Assembly (NCBI GenBank): GCA_030625885.1 | Contig: DAOUPZ010000001.1 | Span: 124,001 to 188,000 of the forward strand | Origin: Clostridia bacterium | GTDB taxonomy: Bacteria; Bacillota; DAOUPZ01 | DNA length: 64,000 nucleotides | Reading direction: 5' to 3' | Shown: positions 6,441-21,060 of the stretch, piece by piece | How positions within the stretch are numbered: position 1 is the stretch's first letter | How the letters are laid out: each line of letters opens with the position of its first letter | The notes under the pieces: model-generated | What the model was told of the DNA's origin: nothing | The model's database searches: none | The model's input: the letters and a program-made list of their open reading frames with translations, nothing else | Program-made: the position numbers and the translations under genes

Positions 6441-8939
6441 ATGGGTAAAAAAGTGTTGATTGTCGGTGGTGTAGCAGGGGGGGCAAGTACGGCAGCGCGA
6501 TTAAGACGAGTTGATGAAGAAGCAGAAATTATTATGTTTGAACGGGGAGAATATATTTCTTTTGCCAACTGTGGTCTGCCTTATTATATTGGCGAAGTGA
6601 TTAAAGAAAGGGATAAGTTATTAGTACAAACGCCTGAGGCGATGAAGCAACGGTTCAATATTGATGTTCGGGTCAAAAATGAAGTATTAAAGATTATGCC
6701 GAAAGAAAAACAGGTAGAGGTAAAAGATTGTGGTACGGGTAAAACTTACAAAGAAAGTTATGATTATCTAGTGCTTTCTCCAGGGGCAGATCCTATTAAG
6801 CCCTCTATGCCAGGGGTAGATGCTGATAATATTTTCACATTAAGAAATATTCCTGATACGGATGCAATCAAAAAATATGTGGATGAAATTAAACCTCAGT
6901 GTGCTGTTGTTGTTGGCGGTGGGTTTATCGGCTTGGAAATGGCAGAGAATTTGCATGAACGAGGGGTTAAAGTCTCTTTAGTTGAAATGGGTGAACAGGT
7001 TATGGCACCTCTTGACTATGAAATGGCGCAAGTGGTTCATAAGGAACTTAAAAGTAATAACGTTGATTTATATTTAAAGGATGGTGTTACTTCCTTTGAA
7101 GGCGGTAATAAGATTAATAAGGTAACGCTTCAAAGTGGGAGATCCATAGATGCAGATATGGTTGTGTTAGCCATTGGGGTTAGACCAGAAGTAACTTTGG
7201 CCAAAGACGCGGGACTTGAATTAGGGAAAAGGGGTATTAAAGTAAATGAATATTTACAAACTTCTGATCCAAATATTTATGCCGCTGGAGATGCAATTGA
7301 AGTAAAAGATTTTGTAAATGGAAAACCAACATGGGTTCCTTTAGCCTGGCCTGCAAATCGACAAGGTCGGATTATAGCAAACAATATGACGGGTAGAAAA
7401 GAAAAATATAACGGAACACAGGGAACTTCCATAGCGAAAGTGTTCGATTTAAATGTTGCTTCTACAGGTAGTAATGAAAAAACACTAAAAGAATTGGGTA
7501 TCGATTATTTAGTTTCTTATAATATTACAGGCTCTCATGCTGGTTATTACCCAGGTGCATTTCCTGTGACAATCAAATTAATTTTTACGCCTAAGGAAGG
7601 AAAAATATTGGGTGCTCAGGTTGTAGGGTATGATGGCGTTGCTAAGCGGATAGATGTACTTGCTACTGCTATTCGTGGGAACATGACTGTTTTTGACTTG
7701 CAAGACTTAGAAATTGCTTATGCGCCGCCATTTGCTTCTGCGAAAGATCCAGTTAATATTGCTGGTTATGTAGGAGAAAATATTATTTTAGGCAAAATGG
7801 TTCCTGCTTACTGGCATGAAATTGAAAAATTAGATGCAAATAAAACAATATTCTTAGATGTACGTACAGAAATGGAAAATCAATTAGGTGCTTTATCAGG
7901 TGCTATTAATATTCCTGTTGATGAGTTAAGAGATCGATTAGATGAGATCCCCAAGGACAAGGAAATCATTGTTTTCTGTCAGGTAGGTCTCAGAGGTTAT
8001 ATTGCATCTAGAATATTAATGCAACATGGGTTCAAAAACGTGCGAAATTTAGCAGGTGGTTATAAGGTTTATAAAGTAGCTGTAGATACACATTTTGACA
8101 ATATAGAAAATAAGGGTGAAAAAACAACCCCAAATGATGATGTTGCTAGAATGCAAAGTCATGCAACAAGTATTAATGAAGGTGAAACGATTAAAATTGA
8201 TTGTTGTGGTTTACAATGTCCGGGACCTATCATGCAAGTTTATCAAAGAATCCAAACCATAGAAACCGGACAAGTTTTAGAAGTTTCAGCTACTGATCCC
8301 GGTTTTGTAAGTGATATTAAATCATGGTGTCAAAGTACTGGCAATACGATGCTTAAATCAGGAAAAGGAGATCATTGCTTTAAAGCCTATGTTCAAAAAG
8401 GAAAGGGTAACATTGACAGCATAGCTAACTCAGATCAAAATGGTTCTTCAATGGTTCAGGCAAGTGGCGGTGATAATAAAACGCTGGTGGTTTTTAGCGG
8501 GGATTTGGATAAAGCCATTGCTTCATTTATTATCGCTAATGGCGCGGCTGCGATGGGGAAAAAAGTTACCATGTTCTTTACTTTCTGGGGATTAAATATC
8601 TTGCGCAAACCGTACCATGTACCCGTACAAAAAGGATTTATGGATAAAATGTTTAGCGGGATGATGCCTAGAGGAAGTAAAGCACTAGGGCTCTCAAAAA
8701 TGAATATGATGGGTATGGGACCAAAAATGATTCGTAATGTCATGAAAAATAAAAATGTTTCGCCTTTAGAAGAATTGATTGAACAAGCTAAAGGGCAAGG
8801 CATTAAAATGATTGCATGTAATATGTCGATGGACTTAATGGGAATTAAAAGAGAGGAATTAATTGAGGGGATAGATATTGGTGGTGTAGCAACATATTTA
8901 ACGGATGCTGAACAATCTAATGTGAATCTATTTATTTAA
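6441..8939 (+). CDS. Four-domain CoA-disulfide/persulfide reductase (Pyr_redox + rhodanese + TusA + DsrE-like)
   Basis: The 832-residue protein joins four sulfur-handling units. Residues 1 to about 450 form a CoA-disulfide reductase with FAD motif VGGVAGGAS, active Cys44 in NCGLPYY, NADH motif VVVGGGFIGLEMAE and a dimerisation domain. About 455-555 is a rhodanese with loop CQVGLRG. About 580-655 is TusA-like with CCGLQCPGPIM. About 680-832 is DsrE/DsrF-like, with FSGDLDKAIASFIIANGAAA. Such proteins reduce CoA-persulfides, polysulfide or sulfur with NADH in the cytoplasm. Fusion suggests relay of a persulfide between domains. It is likely controlled by the adjacent ArsR protein, and a perfect hairpin terminator follows. 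Confidence 0.9.
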   Translation: MGKKVLIVGGVAGGASTAARLRRVDEEAEIIMFERGEYISFANCGLPYYIGEVIKERDKLLVQTPEAMKQRFNIDVRVKNEVLKIMPKEKQVEVKDCGTGKTYKESYDYLVLSPGADPIKPSMPGVDADNIFTLRNIPDTDAIKKYVDEIKPQCAVVVGGGFIGLEMAENLHERGVKVSLVEMGEQVMAPLDYEMAQVVHKELKSNNVDLYLKDGVTSFEGGNKINKVTLQSGRSIDADMVVLAIGVRPEVTLAKDAGLELGKRGIKVNEYLQTSDPNIYAAGDAIEVKDFVNGKPTWVPLAWPANRQGRIIANNMTGRKEKYNGTQGTSIAKVFDLNVASTGSNEKTLKELGIDYLVSYNITGSHAGYYPGAFPVTIKLIFTPKEGKILGAQVVGYDGVAKRIDVLATAIRGNMTVFDLQDLEIAYAPPFASAKDPVNIAGYVGENIILGKMVPAYWHEIEKLDANKTIFLDVRTEMENQLGALSGAINIPVDELRDRLDEIPKDKEIIVFCQVGLRGYIASRILMQHGFKNVRNLAGGYKVYKVAVDTHFDNIENKGEKTTPNDDVARMQSHATSINEGETIKIDCCGLQCPGPIMQVYQRIQTIETGQVLEVSATDPGFVSDIKSWCQSTGNTMLKSGKGDHCFKAYVQKGKGNIDSIANSDQNGSSMVQASGGDNKTLVVFSGDLDKAIASFIIANGAAAMGKKVTMFFTFWGLNILRKPYHVPVQKGFMDKMFSGMMPRGSKALGLSKMNMMGMGPKMIRNVMKNKNVSPLEELIEQAKGQGIKMIACNMSMDLMGIKREELIEGIDIGGVATYLTDAEQSNVNLFI

Positions 8940-12127: not shown

Positions 12128-12781
12128 TCAAAAACAGCATAATTCAAACAAGCGATCTTCATCAAAGATTGTAATAATATGTCTGCTTGTTGAGATGATA
12201 TCTTTCTGTCTTAATTCTTTTAGAATTCTTGCTACATGTACTCTCGATATTCCTGCCAAATCAGCTAATTCTTGTTCTGTGACGTAGATGTTTTTTTGAG
12301 ATCCATTGTCATTTCCCATTTGTGAATAAAGGTAAAGAATATCAATTACACGAGTTTTTGCGTCAAGGAATATATGACTGTGTGCGTGGAAAACCATTAG
12401 GCGCATAATGTCAGATACATATGAAACTAACGGTATACCAAGCTTGGGGTTCTCTTCAATAAGCTTTTTCATTTTATCATGCGCAATAGGACACAGTTCA
12501 ACATCAGTATATGCAGTAGCTGTTACAACAGCAATGCTGTTTTTATACCATAAGTCCATTCCAAACAGTGAATTTTTGTGAAAACCAAGTATTTTTTCAT
12601 TTCCATCTTCGCTAAATATAGAGATTTTTACTGTTCCTTGAGTTAACCAGAAGAAGTAGTCACAACGAGATCCTGAACTAAATATTACTTCCGTTGTCTT
12701 ATATTTTCTTTTTTCCGATCCTTTAGTCAAATTAGCAATTGAAATAAATTCTTTCTCTAAAACAAATGAAGGTATTGGCAT
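12128..12781 (-). CDS. Crp/Fnr family transcriptional regulator
   Basis: The 217-residue protein has an N-terminal cyclic-nucleotide-like beta-barrel (about 25-110, with SGSRCDYFFWLTQGTVKISI and GFHKNSLFGMDLW). A long dimerisation helix follows, then a C-terminal HTH (TEQELADLAGISRVHVARIL, about 170-190). I choose the ATG at 12781 because GGGGTGAT lies upstream and the longer frame runs into a pseudogene. Ligand is unknown; it lacks the N-terminal cysteine set of FNR. It is divergent from the 2-enoate reductase gene 645 bases away, so control of that gene, perhaps in response to an organic substrate as in CprK, is a reasonable inference. Confidence 0.88.
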   Translation of the reverse strand: MPIPSFVLEKEFISIANLTKGSEKRKYKTTEVIFSSGSRCDYFFWLTQGTVKISIFSEDGNEKILGFHKNSLFGMDLWYKNSIAVVTATAYTDVELCPIAHDKMKKLIEENPKLGIPLVSYVSDIMRLMVFHAHSHIFLDAKTRVIDILYLYSQMGNDNGSQKNIYVTEQELADLAGISRVHVARILKELRQKDIISTSRHIITIFDEDRLFELCCF

Positions 12782-12836
12782 GGTTATAATCACCCCATAA
12801 AATTTATTTGGGAAACATTTTTGCTTTGAATTTTTC

Positions 12837-13097
12837 TCAATAAATACTATGTATGGGTATTTTGTCATTTAGATATTTCTCGATTTCAAGATGATCATTG
12901 GCAGAGTGTCCTAATAGCTTAATTTTTTCTTTGTAACTCGTTACTTGGTCAGTTTGTACTAATGCTCAAGCTTCTTTTAATGCATCCCTTAATTTCTCTT
13001 TAGGGATTACTTTAAGTCATTTGATTAAGAAATCAAATGCTAATAATATACGCATTGCTTTTTTGATGTTAGGTGTGATAAAAGTAGAATCTACTTT
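12837..13097 (-). pseudogene. Degraded coding remnant with in-frame stops
   Basis: One minus-strand frame reads KVDSTFITPNIKKAMRILLA, FDFLIK, stop, LKVIPKEKLRDALKEA, stop, ALVQTDQVTSYKEKIKLLGH, SANDHLEIEKYLNDKIPIHS and IY, then a stop inside the 5' region of the Crp gene. The coding-like composition and single consistent frame suggest the end of a former gene that lost its 5' part. I cannot name the family. Confidence 0.5.
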
Positions 13098-13243: not shown

Positions 13244-13340
13244 AAACTATCATTCATAATAAGAAACAACAAGTAACTATAAGTAACAATAAGTAAATAT
13301 AAATAACAATAAGTAACTATAAGTAACAATAAGAAACCGT
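13241..13340 (+). repeat. 10-bp-phased tandem repeat (AAGTAACWAT family)
   Basis: From 13241 each 10-base block reads aagaaactat, cattcataat, aagaaacaac, aagtaactat, aagtaacaat, aagtaaatat, aaataacaat, aagtaactat, aagtaacaat, aagaaaccgt. Nine of ten begin with a variant of AAGTAAC. The period equals a helical turn, so all copies face the same side of DNA. It sits about 85 bases before the 2-enoate reductase gene and does not encode protein. Confidence 0.85.
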
Positions 13341-13425: not shown

Positions 13426-15432
13426 ATGTCAAAGCTGTTTCCAAATCTTTTTTCACCTGCAAAGATAGGTAATCTTACAATTAAAAACAGAGTAGTTAAA
13501 GCACCTCAATCAACGGGTATGAGTAATATGGATGGTACTGTTAGTGAAAGATTACTCAGACATTATGAGGAAATTGCTAAAGGTGGAACAGGCTTAACTA
13601 TTGTCGAATATGCATTTGTTGATAAAATTGCAAGTAAATCTGCTCATTGTCAATTAGGAATTTGCGATAAGGAAATGATTCCTGGTTTATCTTGGCTAGC
13701 AGATGTAATTAGAGATAATGGTTCAACACCTGGTATTCAAATAGAGCATTGCGGCAGACAAAGGTTTTTAGGTACTCAACCCATGAAATCTTCTTCGAGA
13801 GTTGCATGGCCATCTCTTTATAGCCAATATGGGTTAGAAGCAATACCACAAGAGTTAACGATTGAAGAGATTCATGAAATTGTAGAGGCGTTTGGCGATT
13901 CAGCAGCACGTGCTGTAACGGCTGGATTTGAATTAATTGAAATACACGGGGCTCATGGATATTTACTTACTAATTTCCTTTCACCTCATGTAAACCATCG
14001 TACAGATATGTATGGCGGAACTTTAGAAAATAGAATGAGAATTGTAGTTGAAATTGTACGTAATATACGTAAAAAAATAGGCTCTGATTTTCCATTAATA
14101 ATAAGACTAAGTGGTACAGATTATGAGCCTGATGGATTTGGCATCGAAGAAACTATCGAAGTTGCAAAAACATTAGAGAAAGAAGGAATAGATGCTATCC
14201 ACGTATCAGGTGGGGATCACCATCAAATGATTCACCAAGTAACGCCTATGTGTTTGTCTGTATGCCATAATACATGGGCTGCAGAAGCCATTAAAAAAGA
14301 AATTAATATACCGGTAATTGCTTCAGGGTCTATAACTCTTCCTGAATATGCTGAGGATATTATCGCAAGTGGAAAAGGAGATTTCGTTGGACTTGGAAGA
14401 CCATTATGGGCAGACCAATATTGGGCCAAAAAGGCAATGGAAGACAGGCCAGAAGATATCAGCCCTTGTATTCGTTGTAACGAAGGCTGCTTGGAAAGAA
14501 CATTCTTTAAATATAGAGCTGTAAGTTGTGCTGTTAATCCCACAATTGGTCGAGAAGGTCAGTTAGTTATTACTCCGGCAAAGGAAAAGAAAAATATAGC
14601 AGTTATCGGCGGCGGTCCTGCTGGAATGGAACTTGCCAGAGTATGTACGCTTAAAGGACATAATGTAACAATTTTTGAAAAACGTAAGCTAGGCGGTTAC
14701 TTACATGAAGCTTCGGCAGCTGATTTTAAAGCTGACATTAGACCTTTAAGAGATTATCTTATTACTCAAATTAAGAAGCTTAATGTAAAAGTTATTAATG
14801 AGAATGCAACAGTAGATACAATCAAGAAGGGGAAATATGATGTAGTAGTTGTAGCAACTGGTGCGACTCCAATTAAGTTAAATGTACCTGGGGCTGACAA
14901 AGAAAATGTTATTGGTGCATTGGATGTTATAAATAAATTACAAGATGTAGAACAAATCATGGATGAGTGTGCTGCTGCGTTAGAAGATGTAGAACAAAAA
15001 GCAGTAGTTATGGGTGAAGTAGTAGTTATCGGTGGTGGACTAATTGGTACAGAGCTTGCTATTGAATTGAAAGAAAAGGGCAAGAACGTAACTCTTGTTG
15101 AAATGTCAGATCAGATCATGAGTGATTGTGCTACTACTGATAAAATAGCTTATGGAGAAAGAATTGCGAAAGATAATATTGAAGTTCTTACTGGGTTAAA
15201 GGTTGAAGAAATTAAAGATGGTTCTATCGTAGTAGTTGACAAGAAGGGTGTAAAAAAAGATATTGTAGCAGACACAGTAATTGTAGCAGTTGGGATGAAA
15301 ACAAACAATAAATTATGTGAAGATATTAAGACGGGATGCGATGCTGAAGTTCATGTTATCGGCGACTGTATAAAACCTGGAAAAATATTTGATGCAATAC
15401 ATACAGGATATAAAACCGCAATTAGAATTTAA
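13426..15432 (+). CDS. 2-Enoate reductase / 2,4-dienoyl-CoA reductase family (FMN, [4Fe-4S], FAD)
   Basis: The 668-residue protein has an Old-Yellow-Enzyme TIM barrel (1 to about 335; IEIHGAHGYLLTNFLSPHVN, GSGxGD-type FMN site near LASGSITLP). The iron-sulfur ligands are C348-x2-C351-x3-C355-x12-C368. Two dinucleotide sites follow, IAVIGGGPAGMELARV (near 387) and VVVIGGGLIGTELAIEL (near 526). The architecture is that of FadH, BaiCD/BaiH and clostridial enoate reductases, which reduce an activated C=C bond with NAD(P)H. In amino-acid fermenters these reduce cinnamate- or crotonate-type acids formed by 2-hydroxyacyl-CoA dehydratases, whose activase relatives lie next door. Substrate is not determined. 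RBS AAGGAGGAG; terminator follows. Confidence 0.92.
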   Translation: MSKLFPNLFSPAKIGNLTIKNRVVKAPQSTGMSNMDGTVSERLLRHYEEIAKGGTGLTIVEYAFVDKIASKSAHCQLGICDKEMIPGLSWLADVIRDNGSTPGIQIEHCGRQRFLGTQPMKSSSRVAWPSLYSQYGLEAIPQELTIEEIHEIVEAFGDSAARAVTAGFELIEIHGAHGYLLTNFLSPHVNHRTDMYGGTLENRMRIVVEIVRNIRKKIGSDFPLIIRLSGTDYEPDGFGIEETIEVAKTLEKEGIDAIHVSGGDHHQMIHQVTPMCLSVCHNTWAAEAIKKEINIPVIASGSITLPEYAEDIIASGKGDFVGLGRPLWADQYWAKKAMEDRPEDISPCIRCNEGCLERTFFKYRAVSCAVNPTIGREGQLVITPAKEKKNIAVIGGGPAGMELARVCTLKGHNVTIFEKRKLGGYLHEASAADFKADIRPLRDYLITQIKKLNVKVINENATVDTIKKGKYDVVVVATGATPIKLNVPGADKENVIGALDVINKLQDVEQIMDECAAALEDVEQKAVVMGEVVVIGGGLIGTELAIELKEKGKNVTLVEMSDQIMSDCATTDKIAYGERIAKDNIEVLTGLKVEEIKDGSIVVVDKKGVKKDIVADTVIVAVGMKTNNKLCEDIKTGCDAEVHVIGDCIKPGKIFDAIHTGYKTAIRI

Positions 15433-15475
15433 TACTTAAGTTTCGTACCCAAGATAGTGTATAATTTTTTGTATG

Positions 15476-15516
15476 AATCATAACCACCCCTCTTAGGGGT
15501 GGTTATGATTTTTTTT
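15476..15516 (+). terminator. Strong terminator after enoate reductase
   Basis: A 16-bp perfect stem (15476-15491 with 15495-15510, loop CTT) containing CCACCCCT/AGGGGTGG is followed by TTTTTT. Confidence 0.92.
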
Positions 15517-15586: not shown

Positions 15587-16552
15587 ATGACAGTACGTGT
15601 GGGAATACCCAAAGGATTATTATTTTACGAGTATGAAAGTTTTTGGCGAGTTTTTTTTGAAAGCTTAGGAGTGGAAGTGATTTTTTCTCCAGATACAAAC
15701 AAAGATATTATGAAAAATGGGTTAAAGCTGTGCGAAGAAGAGGCCTGTTTACCGGTTAAGATCTTTCATGGGCATGTTTTGGAACTAGCAGATAAAGTAG
15801 ATATGTTATTTATCCCTAGAATTAGAAGCCTACATTATCGTGAATATTATTGTCCTATGATTTGTGGCCTTCCTGAAATGGTTAAAAATAGTGTGTCTCT
15901 TCTCCCTTCTGTTATTGATGACACCATTGATTATTATAAGCACCGTTATTATAAAGGGGGGGTGGTGCGTATGGGTTTAAAAATTTCTAGTGATCAATCA
16001 AAGATAAAAAAGGCATATTGTAAAGCATGTAAGGGATTGCAGAATAAAAATGATTATCAAAAAATCCCAACTGACAAAAATGAAAAAAGCTATACCATTG
16101 CTATTATTGGACATACATATAATCTAACGGATCACTATATGAATATGAATCTAATAAAAAAGATAAAAGGTGAAGGTTTCCAGGTGCTAACATCTTGTAT
16201 GGTTTCATGTGGAAAAACTCAACCTTATCTTTCTAAAGTGCCCAAACGAATTTTTTGGAGTTGTGGGAGGGAAATACTAGGGGCTGGATTATATTATATG
16301 CATCAGCAAAATATTGATGGGATTATTTATGTTTCATGTTTTGGTTGCGGCGTAGATTCTTTGATTGAACCTTATTTATCACAACAATTGAAAAAAGTTC
16401 GACCAATACCTTACTTGGTGATCTCTCTAGACGAGCATACGGGAGAAGCAGGATTAAATACCAGGTTAGAGGCTTTTTTAGATATGATAAGATGGAGGCG
16501 ATCTTGTGCGAATCACATTTCCTCATATGGGGGAAACCTATATAGCTGCTAA
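15587..16552 (+). CDS. Acyl-CoA dehydratase activase-related protein (DUF2229-like), pair 1 member A
   Basis: The 321-residue protein starts VRVGIPKGLLFYEYESFW, the DUF2229 signature. It carries conserved-looking cysteines in EEACLPVKIFHGHV, YYCPMICGLP and VSCFGCGVDS, followed by LDEHTGEAGLNTRLEAF. These proteins resemble pieces of the large 2-hydroxyglutaryl-CoA dehydratase activase fusions and the dehydratase D-component fold, and are thought to hold iron-sulfur clusters. No reaction is established. The gene is first of a two-gene unit with the next gene overlapping by 47 bases. The homologue at 17825 has the same layout. RBS AGGGGGC. Confidence 0.82.
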   Translation: MTVRVGIPKGLLFYEYESFWRVFFESLGVEVIFSPDTNKDIMKNGLKLCEEEACLPVKIFHGHVLELADKVDMLFIPRIRSLHYREYYCPMICGLPEMVKNSVSLLPSVIDDTIDYYKHRYYKGGVVRMGLKISSDQSKIKKAYCKACKGLQNKNDYQKIPTDKNEKSYTIAIIGHTYNLTDHYMNMNLIKKIKGEGFQVLTSCMVSCGKTQPYLSKVPKRIFWSCGREILGAGLYYMHQQNIDGIIYVSCFGCGVDSLIEPYLSQQLKKVRPIPYLVISLDEHTGEAGLNTRLEAFLDMIRWRRSCANHISSYGGNLYSC

Positions 16553-17597
16553 AGGATTTTTAGAAGATTTAGGACTAGAGGTTGTAGTACCGCCGCCTTG
16601 TGATAAAGAAACATTAAATATAGGAACGCGTTATTCACCAGCGGAGATTTGCCTACCATTTAAAATTAATATAGGAAATTATATTCAGAGTATTGAAAAT
16701 GGTGCGGATACGATCTTAATTACAGGAAGTTGTGGGCCATGTCGCTTTGGACTTTTTTGGATGGCGCAGCAAGAGATATTAAATAATCTAGGCTATGATG
16801 TTGAAATTATTGCTTTTGATCCTCCACAGGAGAATGTGAGAGACTTTTTGCAAAAAAGCAAAAAGATTTTAGGTTATCATACGCCCTATCAGATTGCTAA
16901 AGCAGCGAAAAATACTTATCGAATTGTGCGGGAAATGGAAGCGATATCTAACAGACTTTATAAAATAAGACCTCGTGAGATAGAAGTAGGAAGTGCAGAT
17001 CGATATTATAAAAATTTTGAAAGTGAAATATATCATGTTAGGGGTTCGAAAGCTATTTTGGGGTTAATTGATACCCTTAACAATGATTTAGATCATGTAG
17101 ATATGGATTTATCTATAAAACCCATTAAAATAGGAATCGTTGGAGAAATTTATACGATGATTGAGCCATTTATCAATCTAAACTTAGAAAGAAAGCTAGG
17201 ACAGTTAGGGGTAGAAGTTCATCGCTCCATGACTGTAGGTCATTGGGTTGAAACGACTGTTATGGAAAAATTGTTTAAAATGAATAAAGAGAAAAATATT
17301 CAAGAAGCTGCTGAGCCCTATCTAAAAACATTTATTGGAGGGCATGGGCAGGAATGTATTGGGCATGCTGTACAGTACGCAGAAAAATTATATGATGGCG
17401 TCATACATCTTTATCCATTTACCTGTATGCCGCAAATTGTTGCTAAAAGCATACTCCCAACTGTTATCAAGGATTATGACATGCCTTTATTGACGCTTGT
17501 TGTTGATGAAATGACAAGTGAAGTCAATTATCAGACGAGATTGGAAGCGTTTACGGATTTATTAAAAATGAAAGATACAAAGATGAGGATCGGTTAA
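16506..17597 (+). CDS. CoA-protein-activase-like iron-sulfur protein, pair 1 member B
   Basis: From a GTG with GGAGGCGA upstream the product has 363 residues and begins RITFPHMGETYIAAKGFLED. Potential cluster ligands are C49 (PAEICLPFK), C76 and C79 (GSCGPCRFG), the cysteine of GGHGQECIGHA and that of YPFTCMPQIVAKS. This is the pattern of the 2-hydroxyacyl-CoA dehydratase D-component superfamily. The 47-base overlap with the preceding gene argues for translational coupling and a complex of A and B. A decayed copy of its 3' end is at 11737-11933. Its electron acceptor is unknown; a reductase or double-cubane-type role is a hypothesis. Confidence 0.82.
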   Translation: MRITFPHMGETYIAAKGFLEDLGLEVVVPPPCDKETLNIGTRYSPAEICLPFKINIGNYIQSIENGADTILITGSCGPCRFGLFWMAQQEILNNLGYDVEIIAFDPPQENVRDFLQKSKKILGYHTPYQIAKAAKNTYRIVREMEAISNRLYKIRPREIEVGSADRYYKNFESEIYHVRGSKAILGLIDTLNNDLDHVDMDLSIKPIKIGIVGEIYTMIEPFINLNLERKLGQLGVEVHRSMTVGHWVETTVMEKLFKMNKEKNIQEAAEPYLKTFIGGHGQECIGHAVQYAEKLYDGVIHLYPFTCMPQIVAKSILPTVIKDYDMPLLTLVVDEMTSEVNYQTRLEAFTDLLKMKDTKMRIG

Positions 17598-17633
17598 TAC
17601 TAGATATTTTGAGTGTTTACTTTCTATCATACC

Positions 17634-17662
17634 AAAACAGCCGCAGGCTGTTTTCTTTTTTT
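17634..17662 (+). terminator. Intrinsic terminator between the two pairs
   Basis: AAAACAGCC gca GGCTGTTTT followed by CTTTTTTT. The same AAACAGCC/GGCTGTTT stem recurs at other gene ends in the window. Confidence 0.88.
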
Positions 17663-17824
17663 AAGGTCTAAGAGAAGCTTTTTAAGCGTATGATGGTAGT
17701 AAATATTATTTAAAAAAATGTTTTCGATTGGATGAAAATGTGGTATATAAAGATTATGATAAATTATAAGAAGATATAAATAACGAATTTAGTATTTATA
17801 ATTTGATAAGGGGAAGGATGAAAC

Positions 17825-18838
17825 ATGAGAATTGGGTTACCCAAGGCGCTGCTTTACTATTATTATTTTCCTTTATGGAAAACTTTTTTTGAAGCATTAG
17901 GATGTGAAGTGGTTGTTTCTAATGAGACAACGAAGCAAACACTTGACAATGGGACAAAATTTATGGCTCCAGAACTATGTGTCCCTATGAAAATTTGTAG
18001 TGGGCATGTTGCTGAGTTGTTGGAAGAAAAGGTGGATTATATATTTTTGCCACGGATGGTTTCTATACATAAGCAAGAAACGTTTTGCCCTAAGTTTTTA
18101 GGATTACCAGATATGATGCGATACACCATTCCAGGTCTTGAAGAAAAAATGCTTGCTCCGCAAATTCATTCTCATACGGAGCGCGTTTCCCATCCTAAAG
18201 ATTATCTTATTCTCAGAGAACCACTGGAGGTCAGCTTACAAGATATTAAAAAAGCTTTAAAACAAGCGGAAAAAGTGTGGTGTGATTTTCGAGCGTATTC
18301 AAAACGAGGATATGATATAAAGAATGCTACGGATTTAGCTTTGGGACAAGTAACAGAAATGGAGTTAGCAGAAAAAAACAAAAACCCGTTTGATATATCC
18401 ATTGGGGTTATAGGGTATGTTTATAATATTTATGACAAGTTTGTAAGTATGGATCTTTTAAATCATTTAGAAAATTTGAATGTAAATGTTTTTACTTTTG
18501 AAATGTTGGATGAGATGGAGATGGAGATGGAACTAAATGATATGAAGAAAGCCATGTTCTGGACTTTCTCCAATAAATTGCTTGGTACAGGGCGTCGCTT
18601 TTATCATGATACTCATATTGATGGCATTATTCATGTGACTGCTTTTGGCTGTGGCCCGGATTCTTTTGTTGGAAAGTTAATGGAATTAGAATCAAATGAA
18701 TGCCACAAGCCATTTATGACTGTGCGTGTTGATGAGCATTCAGGTCAAAACCATTTACAAACACGTATAGAAGCATTTGTTGATATGATTAAGAAAAAGA
18801 AAAATGCGTTAAAAACGCAGAAGCAGAGGAGAGCATAA
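17825..18838 (+). CDS. Acyl-CoA dehydratase activase-related protein (DUF2229-like), pair 2 member A
   Basis: The 337-residue protein, starting RIGLPKALLYYYYFPLW, parallels the gene at 15587. It has APELCVPMKICSGHV, ETFCPKFLGLPDM, HVTAFGCGPDSFVG and VDEHSGQNHLQTRIEAFVD. It has its own 227-base upstream region with a terminator before it and GGGGAAGGATG as RBS, so pair 2 is likely a separate transcript or attenuated from pair 1. A repeated EMEMEMELND stretch is found near residue 235. Cysteine spacing supports an iron-sulfur protein; function is not established. Confidence 0.82.
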   Translation: MRIGLPKALLYYYYFPLWKTFFEALGCEVVVSNETTKQTLDNGTKFMAPELCVPMKICSGHVAELLEEKVDYIFLPRMVSIHKQETFCPKFLGLPDMMRYTIPGLEEKMLAPQIHSHTERVSHPKDYLILREPLEVSLQDIKKALKQAEKVWCDFRAYSKRGYDIKNATDLALGQVTEMELAEKNKNPFDISIGVIGYVYNIYDKFVSMDLLNHLENLNVNVFTFEMLDEMEMEMELNDMKKAMFWTFSNKLLGTGRRFYHDTHIDGIIHVTAFGCGPDSFVGKLMELESNECHKPFMTVRVDEHSGQNHLQTRIEAFVDMIKKKKNALKTQKQRRA

Positions 18839-18843
18839 AACAA

Positions 18844-19962
18844 ATGATAGTATCTTTTCCTCATATGGGATCTCCTGTTCCATACAAAAAAATATTTGAA
18901 TGTTTGGGCCATGACGTTATTGTGCCCCCTGTGCCTTCGCAACGAACGATTGATATGGGGGTTAAGTATAGTCCTGAATTTGCTTGTTTTCCTTTTAAAG
19001 TTCTCTTGGGTACCTATATGGAAGCAATTGAATTGGGGGCGAAAGTCATTATTTCATCTGGAGGCCATGGGCCTTGCCGGGCAGGTTTTTATAGTGAAGT
19101 TCAACAACGTATTTTACAGCAACTTAATATGTCGGTTGAATTTATTATTTTTGATTCACCAAACCATGGAGGGTATCAGGATTTCTGGCATAATTTAATT
19201 AGGCTTAAAGGGAAAAGTTCCTGGTTTCACTTTATGCGTTCAGTGAATCTCGTATATCATATGATACATATATTAGATCAATTAGAACGACAACTTGAAA
19301 TAAAACGAGCATATGAAGTGGTTCCTGGTACCTGTTCTAAAACATGGGAAAAAATTCAAGAAGACTTTTCAAACTTAGTGAATGTTTCTAAGGATCTTAA
19401 GGCTATTGAGAACTTAAGCAAGGAACGCATTGAAAAAATTAATGTAGAAGTTCCTGGGGAAGATGAAAAGATTCGAATAGGAATCGTAGGAGAGATTTAT
19501 GTTGTGATGGAGAAAAATGTGAACATGAAGCTAGAAGAAAAACTAGGTGCATTAGGTGTAGAAGTTGAACGGTCGCAGTATCTTTCACATTGGGTAGATT
19601 ATAATATGATTCCTAAATGGATTAAACATTCTCATGAAGAGGCTATATTAAAAAAAGGCGAAAAATATATTGAAATTAATATTGGGGGACATGCTAAACA
19701 AACCGTTGGACACATTGTGGATTATAAGGAACGCGGGTTTGATGGTATCATCCATTTAATGCCTTTTGCGTGTTTGCCGGAATTGGTATCACAAAGTATT
19801 ATTCCAAGAATATCACAGGAGTTAGACATTCCCGTCATATCATTTTCTATTGATGAACAAACGGGTTTAGCTAATAATTTGACCCGGATTGAAGCGTTTG
19901 TGGATTTGATTCGGAATAAGAAGAGACGCCTTATTTATAACAAATGCGTAGCTGGTTTATAA
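18844..19962 (+). CDS. CoA-protein-activase-like protein, pair 2 member B
   Basis: The 372-residue protein begins IVSFPHMGSPVPYKKIFE, parallel to the 16506 gene. C48 (PEFACFPFK), C78 (GGHGPCRAG) and the cysteine in MPFACLPELVSQS are kept. However, the positions equal to C76 and to the cysteine of GQEC are His75 and Thr (GGHAKQTVGHI). Thus it lacks two candidate ligands of its paralogue. The gene follows its A partner by five bases (RBS GAGGAGAGC), so the pair is co-translated. Either a different cluster type or a structural partner role is plausible. Confidence 0.8.
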   Translation: MIVSFPHMGSPVPYKKIFECLGHDVIVPPVPSQRTIDMGVKYSPEFACFPFKVLLGTYMEAIELGAKVIISSGGHGPCRAGFYSEVQQRILQQLNMSVEFIIFDSPNHGGYQDFWHNLIRLKGKSSWFHFMRSVNLVYHMIHILDQLERQLEIKRAYEVVPGTCSKTWEKIQEDFSNLVNVSKDLKAIENLSKERIEKINVEVPGEDEKIRIGIVGEIYVVMEKNVNMKLEEKLGALGVEVERSQYLSHWVDYNMIPKWIKHSHEEAILKKGEKYIEINIGGHAKQTVGHIVDYKERGFDGIIHLMPFACLPELVSQSIIPRISQELDIPVISFSIDEQTGLANNLTRIEAFVDLIRNKKRRLIYNKCVAGL

Positions 19963-19986
19963 GTGCTGTTTATTAAAAGAAAAGGG

Positions 19987-20021
19987 AGCAGGTAGCAACC
20001 AGAGGGAGCGAACTATCTGCT
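19987..20021 (+). other. Hairpin in the leader of the activase gene
   Basis: AGCAGGTAG (19987-19995) pairs with CTATCTGCT (20013-20021) with one G-U pair. It encloses GCAACCAGAGGGAGCGAA. The 13-base AGGTAGCAACCAG also occurs at 55950-55962. Role unknown; it is too weak in T residues to be a standard terminator. Confidence 0.4.
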
Positions 20022-20058
20022 ATTGCTCTATAATTTTAAAATTATTGGGAGGCGGCCA

Positions 20059-21030
20059 ATGATGGAAGAAATTTATATTGGTATTGATGTGGGATCTGTT
20101 AGCACTAATATTGTTGCGATAAATGAAACAAAAGAGGTTGTATTTAGTCAATATATTCGAACAGGTGGTCAGCCGTTAGAATCTGTAAAATATGGGATTA
20201 AGCAGCTTGAGCAAGCGATTGGCGATAAAATGGTTGTGAAAGGCGTAGGTACGACAGGGAGTGGGCGTCAGTTATCTGGAATATTGGTGGGAGCGGATGT
20301 TATTAAAAATGAAATCACAGCACATGCCACGGCAACATTGTCCACTGTGCCTGATGTTTGTACGATATTCGAAATTGGTGGGCAGGATTCCAAGTTGATT
20401 TTACTTAAAGATCAAATTGTAATTGATTTTGCGATGAATACAGTATGTGCGGCTGGTACAGGTTCATTTCTTGATCATCAGGCTGAACGTCTCGGAATAC
20501 CGATTGAAAAGTTTGGTGAAATGGCACTTCAGGCGAAAAAGGATGTGCGTATTGCAGGGCGGTGTACCGTTTTTGCCGAATCAGATATGATTGCTAAACA
20601 ACAATTTGGTTTTTCAAAGGCTGATATTATTAAAGGCCTATGCGAAGCACTTGTGCGTAATTTTATTAATAATTTGGGGAGAGGGAAAAAATTAGAACCA
20701 CCATTTGTTTTTCAGGGAGGGGTTGCAGCTAATCGCGGTATCAAAGCAGCCTTCGAAAAAGAAATTGGGCACCCCATCATTATTTTACCCCACTTTAATG
20801 TAATGGGTGCTATTGGTGCGGCAATCTTAGCATTGGAATATATAATGGATACAGGTAAAACCACCAAATTTAGAGGATTTAATATGATGGAACATAATTT
20901 TTCGCCTTCTACATTTAACTGTACAGGTTGTTCAAATTGTTGTGAAATTATCCAAGTTGAATTAGATGATAAAGTGATTGCCATGTGGGGCGATCGTTGC
21001 GGTAAATGGACGAATTCCATAAGTTCGTAA
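20059..21030 (+). CDS. Acyl-CoA dehydratase activase (BcrAD/BadFG/HgdC-type ASKHA ATPase) with extra C-terminal Cys motif
   Basis: The ATPase is 323 residues from the ATG at 20059, preceded by GGGAGGCGG; an in-frame TTG upstream lacks support. It shows the ASKHA phosphate loops IGIDVGSVSTN and GGQDSK, and the [4Fe-4S] cysteines of NTVCAAGTGSF and GRCTVFAESD that bridge the HgdC dimer. HgdC-type activases use ATP to drive an electron to a dehydratase. A C-terminal tail holds CTGCSNCCEI and a final DRCGKW cysteine, a motif otherwise found in the long fused activases. It is the obvious energiser of the four preceding proteins. No dehydratase alpha/beta genes are nearby. Confidence 0.9.
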   Translation: MMEEIYIGIDVGSVSTNIVAINETKEVVFSQYIRTGGQPLESVKYGIKQLEQAIGDKMVVKGVGTTGSGRQLSGILVGADVIKNEITAHATATLSTVPDVCTIFEIGGQDSKLILLKDQIVIDFAMNTVCAAGTGSFLDHQAERLGIPIEKFGEMALQAKKDVRIAGRCTVFAESDMIAKQQFGFSKADIIKGLCEALVRNFINNLGRGKKLEPPFVFQGGVAANRGIKAAFEKEIGHPIIILPHFNVMGAIGAAILALEYIMDTGKTTKFRGFNMMEHNFSPSTFNCTGCSNCCEIIQVELDDKVIAMWGDRCGKWTNSISS

Positions 21031-21031
21031 G

Positions 21032-21060
21032 AAAAACGGCTTTTAGCCGTTTTTTATTTT
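21032..21060 (+). terminator. Intrinsic terminator
   Basis: AAAACGGC tttta GCCGTTTT followed by a T-rich run. It ends the activase operon. Confidence 0.85.

Follow-up and report, generated by a model that had tools for sequence, protein, structure and literature searches.

A split, ASKHA ATPase-linked reductase-like iron-sulfur system in a Clostridia bacterium and its spoVA-linked relatives

In a stretch of 64,000 nucleotides from the draft genome of a Clostridia bacterium (contig DAOUPZ010000001.1, positions 124,001 to 188,000; G000:C12:124001-188000 in our numbering and hereafter the window), annotated with Pfam and NCBIfam, we analyzed five genes encoding two pairs of cysteine-rich proteins, A1-B1 and A2-B2, and one ASKHA ATPase. 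The explanation that best accounts for the evidence as a whole, and which we consider probable, is that A and B would form a heterodimeric reductase and the ATPase its pump, together performing a low-potential, ATP-driven reduction of a substrate. Based on structure models and profile searches, A and B are predicted to be remote members of the catalytic fold shared by 2-hydroxyacyl-CoA dehydratases (HAD), class I benzoyl-CoA reductases (BCR) and double-cubane proteins (DCCP). Open reading frame calls recovered all five genes where an earlier, sequence-only reading had placed them, with the following arrangement:

15587..16552, plus strand: A1, with Pfam matches to DUF2229 and, C-terminally, to HGD-D
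16506..17597, plus strand: B1, with partial Pfam matches to DUF2229 and a match to HGD-D
17825..18838, plus strand: A2, with Pfam matches to DUF2229 and, C-terminally, to HGD-D; member of the free-standing (clade c2) triad
18844..19962, plus strand: B2, the partner of A2, with a partial Pfam match to DUF2229 and a match to HGD-D
20023..21030, plus strand: ATPase, HgdC/BadF-type ASKHA, matching Pfam BcrAD_BadFG / CoA_E_activ
20920..21000, plus strand: C-terminal CxxCxxxC...C motif of the ATPase, beyond the region aligning to HgdC

The HGD-D scores exceed the Pfam cut-off in A1, A2 and B2. B1 begins with a GTG codon that overlaps A1 by 47 nucleotides and agrees with the family consensus, while the alignment suggests that the true start of the ATPase is the ATG near 20059.

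Conservation of the cysteines, which had been named beforehand as the test for this system, was assessed with alignments covering 60 A, 62 B and 52 ATPase sequences, and it held in all three. Exactly three cysteines are invariant in A (60/60 orthologues; C54, C89 and C254 in A1, and C52, C88 and C276 in A2), and exactly three in B (62/62 orthologues; C49, C79 and C307 in B1, and C48, C78 and C310 in B2). Within the ATPase, C142 and C181, which we take to be the expected bridging-cluster positions of HgdC, are conserved in 51-52 of the 52 proteins. The extra C-terminal motif pointed out in the sequence-only reading is real and near-invariant (C300, C303, C307 and C326; 51-52/52), and this four-cysteine tail is probably an additional Fe-S site. 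In BzdO, Cys95, Cys128 and Cys380 bind a [4Fe-4S]-OH2 cluster (PMC11971306), and the spacing between the first two cysteines, 33 residues in that protein, is 35 in A and 30 in B.

AlphaFold2 models of A1 and B2, with predicted local distance difference test (pLDDT) values of 91.6 and 93.4, respectively, were compared with the PDB. For B2, all 18 matches at E < 1e-3 were HAD, DCCP, BzdNO or MbdON structures, and E rose from 4e-5 to 4e-2 past the last HAD/DCCP/BCR chain. For A1, the same families occupied ranks 1-12, 15, 16 and 19 of the 19 matches at E < 1e-3, the remaining four being a UPF0261 protein and glutamate racemases with TM-scores of 0.20-0.27, so that HAD, DCCP and class I BCR are the sole PDB families with a good TM-score to the two models. 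Profile searches with A retrieved the DCCP 7yyl (E 2e-7), 6eno and the HAD beta subunit 3o3m, and in all three the conserved C-terminal cysteine aligned with the third cysteine of A; searches with B retrieved the same families with weak, marginal scores (E 0.0045), and single-sequence searches of the PDB with A1 and B1 gave no match. An hhalign comparison of A with B showed them to be homologous along most of the sequence (E 1.7e-42); in hhalign comparisons with the DCCPs of their own genome the C-terminal half alone was aligned. The ATPase matched HgdC, the HAD activator, MbdQ and DCCP-R in hmmsearch. Taken together, the fold matches and three-cysteine sites point to A and B as the acceptor or catalytic component of the system.

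The sequence-only reading had also described the set as lacking dehydratase subunits. This holds insofar as no HadB/HadC-type dehydratase pair was seen among the four other full-length HGD-D proteins of the draft genome, but it fails in that A and B themselves carry, by prediction, that fold and its three-cysteine site. Double-cubane proteins account for three of these four (NF040772, 500-545 bits); the remaining one, together with its ATPase, is another diverged member of the superfamily:

L016:8179-9507 (contig C15): double-cubane protein, NF040772
L017:1089-2285 (contig C24): double-cubane protein, NF040772
L018:5439-6578 (contig C6): double-cubane protein, NF040772
L019:5277-7032 (contig C28): short HGD-D protein of 327 residues with its own ATPase of 255 residues, 32 bits to the double-cubane model

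According to labels read from the sequence, the double-cubane gene on C6 adjoins a UroD/methyltransferase-like gene, and that on C24 adjoins an ABC transporter set.

The window set shares features with four known systems and differs from each. Like the 2-hydroxyacyl-CoA dehydratases (HadBC/HadI, HgdAB/HgdC), it combines an ASKHA ATPase bearing two cluster cysteines with two related subunits that have one three-cysteine site each and the same predicted overall fold; unlike them, A and B give no match to the HadB/HadC equivalog models and show ~12-15% identity in structural alignments, the N-terminal and middle elements of the CoA channel appear reduced in their models, and the window ATPase carries its extra four-cysteine tail. 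With class I benzoyl-CoA reductases (BzdNOPQ, MbdONPQ) it has in common the fold, the BzdO-like three-cysteine spacing and an ATP-driven electron activation module, whereas it has one kind of ATPase and lacks a counterpart of BzdN, the double-cubane subunit with six cysteine ligands (PMC11971306). The fold, a C-terminal invariant cysteine and possession of an own ATPase are shared with DCCP/DCCP-R, but A and B have three rather than six ligands per subunit, score below 20 bits with NF040772 (A1 18.5, A2 19, B none) against a cut-off of 350, and coexist with separate, true DCCPs in this genome. The fourth system is a fused 'acyl-CoA dehydratase activase' of ~1,420 amino acids (ASKHA-ASKHA-Cys4-DUF2229-HGD-D-like), which has the same domains in the same order and the same twelve cysteines, while the split triad consists of three genes with a single ASKHA domain. 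We know of no characterization of this fused form, nor of an activity for any family member.

The A-B-ATPase triad is a real unit, as A and the ATPase adjoin 98 of the 118 B genes with enough flanking sequence, a further 13 of the 118 having A without the ATPase; orphan A-B pairs like A1-B1 also occur at other loci. The usual split order is A-B-ATPase, with A-ATPase-B at two loci (L178, L186) and A-B-ATPase-B' at two others (L065, L066), where an extra B-like gene past the ATPase represents another route to an added acceptor subunit. Related genomes also encode fused proteins of ~1,420 residues in the order ASKHA-ASKHA-Cys4-A-B, and these full fusions keep all twelve cysteines of A, B and the ATPase. 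A-B fusions beside a separate ATPase were found at L226-L228, and in the L227 protein the last B cysteine position fell within an alignment gap. B2-like matches were present in 276 of 399 sampled genomes of the phylum. A full split triad was also seen under a Calditrichales bacterium title (L145) and an A-B pair alone under an uncultured actinobacterium title (L212), which we attribute to transfer or to mislabelled bins.

The two pairs had been described as duplicated. The A tree and the B tree, however, are concordant in placing them apart, which rules out a recent tandem duplication, and by these phylogenies A1-B1 and A2-B2 derive from two ancient clades. A2-B2 falls within the free-standing clade c2 of ~29 loci, to which the tree also assigns the ATPase and which is present in Halanaerobium, a genus known as non-sporulating. 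A1-B1 belongs to a small non-spoVA subclade (support 1.00 for B and 0.98 for A) nested within a mostly spoVA-linked clade; all six sampled relatives in this subclade have their own ATPase, and A1-B1 is without one here. Members of c2 and c3 have no conserved neighbors, and no dedicated substrate enzyme is kept beside the triads of c1, c2 and c3.

The spoVA-linked clade is represented in the same genome by A3-B3-ATPase2 on contig C5 (L015:1266-4293, minus strand), which lies directly downstream of spoVAC/AD/AE/AEA/AF and near a SigF-type gene; NCBIfam confirmed SpoVAC, SpoVAD, SpoVAE, SpoVAEA and the SigF/SigG-family protein at this locus, and SigF, SpoIIAB and LysA in representative loci, with SpoIIAA just below the cut-off. 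We surveyed 81 genomes from ~63 families, 67 of which have a strong SpoVAD match with assigned coordinates, and 53 of these 67 also encode a split A. In 37 genomes A lies at most 12 kb downstream of SpoVAD on the same strand, mostly within 3.5 kb, and in seven more the triad stands beside spoVAF or spoVAEa, bringing the total to 44 of 81. The gap between the last spoVA gene and the triad has a median of 48 nucleotides, and the triad is often placed between spoVAF and lysA, with examples in Desulfofundulus, Pelotomaculum, Orenia, Natroniella, Syntrophomonas and Fervidicola. A rough chance model for A downstream of SpoVAD gave a tail of ~1e-69, which, the genomes being kin, shows non-randomness only. 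Split A proteins in two genomes without a SpoVAD match (G024, G080) and in one with a negligible match (G026) belong to other clades only. Co-occurrence of the triad with the dipicolinate synthase DpaA was also considered and showed no clear correlation, DpaA being present in most sampled spore-formers and missing from several triad genomes.

No description of the link between the triad and spoVA was found in the open-licence literature, and the main text of the sporulation gene survey of Galperin (2012) contains no activase, dehydratase or triad COGs. It is possible, although we would place it somewhat short of even, that an ATP-driven, low-potential Fe-S reductase with the HAD/DCCP fold belongs specifically to the endospore program of anaerobic Bacillota, encoded immediately after spoVA, and that it gave rise to free-standing versions such as A1-B1. 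Since the window genes themselves lie neither in a spoVA operon nor immediately behind one, the link to sporulation constitutes evidence about their relatives.

In the mechanism that we favor, each A+B pair would be a heterodimeric acceptor or reductase whose subunits share the HAD / class I BCR / DCCP fold and carry a three-cysteine [4Fe-4S] site apiece, and the ASKHA ATPase would be the dedicated electron pump of the pair, a dimer with a bridging [4Fe-4S] cluster at C142 and C181. Electrons would probably enter through the four-cysteine tail of the ATPase, and ATP binding and hydrolysis would push an electron at low potential onto the clusters of A and B, and these would in turn reduce the substrate. 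A2-B2-ATPase constitutes a complete free-standing triad, while A1-B1 would need to borrow an ATPase, either that of the window or the spoVA-linked one on contig C5; in the former case a single ATPase might serve both pairs as alternative acceptors, as suggested in the sequence-only reading. Within this scheme we infer the cluster types, the heterodimer, the direction of electron flow and the sharing of an ATPase. The earlier proposal of an ATP-driven low-potential electron machine built of the parts of a fused protein thereby finds backing in homology.

Several points weigh against this mechanism. Our search of open-licence papers turned up no biochemical work on any of these proteins, and homology alone underlies the assignment of cluster content and ATP-coupled reduction. 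The full-length TM-scores of the models are moderate (0.44-0.60) with a large root-mean-square deviation, and the two-domain arrangement of A and B may differ from that of HAD. The correspondence of the first two A/B cysteines with those of BzdO is one of spacing and motif, not of aligned structure. Finally, A and B may act in the maturation or activation of another protein.

The CoA channel of BzdNO is formed in part by a helix at the N-terminus and a middle domain of three helices (PMC11971306). Both models, A1 and B2, begin at the first strand and lack the N-terminal helix, and the middle helices number two in A1 and three in B2. The missing N-terminal helix of both models and the reduced middle domain of A1 hint that the substrate of A/B may be a non-CoA compound or a protein target. 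These apparently reduced channel parts, together with the lack of a dedicated substrate enzyme kept beside the triads, would also suit a system for ATP-dependent activation or repair that reduces a cofactor bound to a protein, such as a corrinoid, flavin or Fe-S enzyme. We regard this alternative as unlikely, if well worth weighing, given that A and B have an HAD-like three-cysteine site, by which one iron in BzdO stays free to bind water at the substrate, and that four ligands would be the more usual number in a protein that only relays electrons. It is quite improbable that A1-B1 and A2-B2 are strongly diverged 2-hydroxyacyl-CoA dehydratases: the type of ATPase, the fold, the three-cysteine sites and the HGD-D matches over the cut-off are what such enzymes would have, but there is no match to the HadB/HadC equivalogs, the CoA-channel elements appear reduced in the models, and the profile similarity lies mainly in the C-terminal half.

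The remaining alternative involves the gene upstream of A1, and it bears on how the region is transcribed. Two neighbors and three hairpins are relevant here:

12128..12868, minus strand: regulator of the CRP/FNR family, oriented divergently to the enoate reductase and outside the system on present evidence
13426..15432, plus strand: OYE/BaiCD-like 2-enoate reductase, the upstream neighbor, judged to be outside the system
15475..15511, plus strand: terminator-like hairpin with a 17-pair stem, between the enoate reductase and A1
17634..17654, plus strand: intrinsic-terminator-like hairpin with a T run, closing the A1-B1 unit
21031..21055, plus strand: terminator-like hairpin immediately 3' of the ATPase gene

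Because these hairpins occupy the intergenic gaps, the region is probably transcribed as three separate units: the enoate reductase, A1-B1 and A2-B2-ATPase. Eight terminator-like sites were observed in the region, compared with 4.1 +/- 2.2 in shuffled sequence, and the case is therefore based on the exact intergenic placement of the three hairpins and on the 17-pair stem. Promoter matches within the locus were no more frequent than expected by chance, and terminators alone were therefore used to define the units. No comparable reductase is kept beside the related sets surveyed for co-occurrence, save for a partial match of 37% close to a contig end (L065) and a distant match on the opposite strand (L178). 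The partnership with the enoate reductase proposed in the sequence-only reading was rejected on the basis of the 17-pair hairpin and this lack of conservation. A common pathway with an enoate as substrate, shared by the reductase, the two pairs and the ATPase, as their adjacency on the same strand in this single genome could suggest, is hardly credible in view of the same two observations.

Upstream of the enoate reductase, in the gap that separates it from the divergent CRP/FNR gene, positions 13259-13337 hold about eight tandem 10-bp units (AATAAGTAAC), a possible regulatory array. Elsewhere in the window, 1843-2571 encodes a protein with GPxGPP collagen-like repeats, a kind known from spore surfaces, and 6441-8939 encodes an 832-residue pyridine nucleotide-disulphide reductase/rhodanese/TusA/DsrE-like fusion adjoining an ArsR-type regulator.

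ATP-driven Fe-S electron pumps are rare, comprising nitrogenase-like systems and the HAD/BCR/DCCP group. The split branch described here, occurring in well over half of the sampled genomes of the phylum and having no assigned substrate, represents a large blank in this group. The database name 'activase-related' appears to mislead, because A and B resemble the reductase half of these systems and not the activator. If the proposed role in the endospore program is true, an ASKHA electron pump would for the first time be linked to sporulation or germination, and the spoVA linkage of one clade turns the blank on substrate and role into a direct genetic question.

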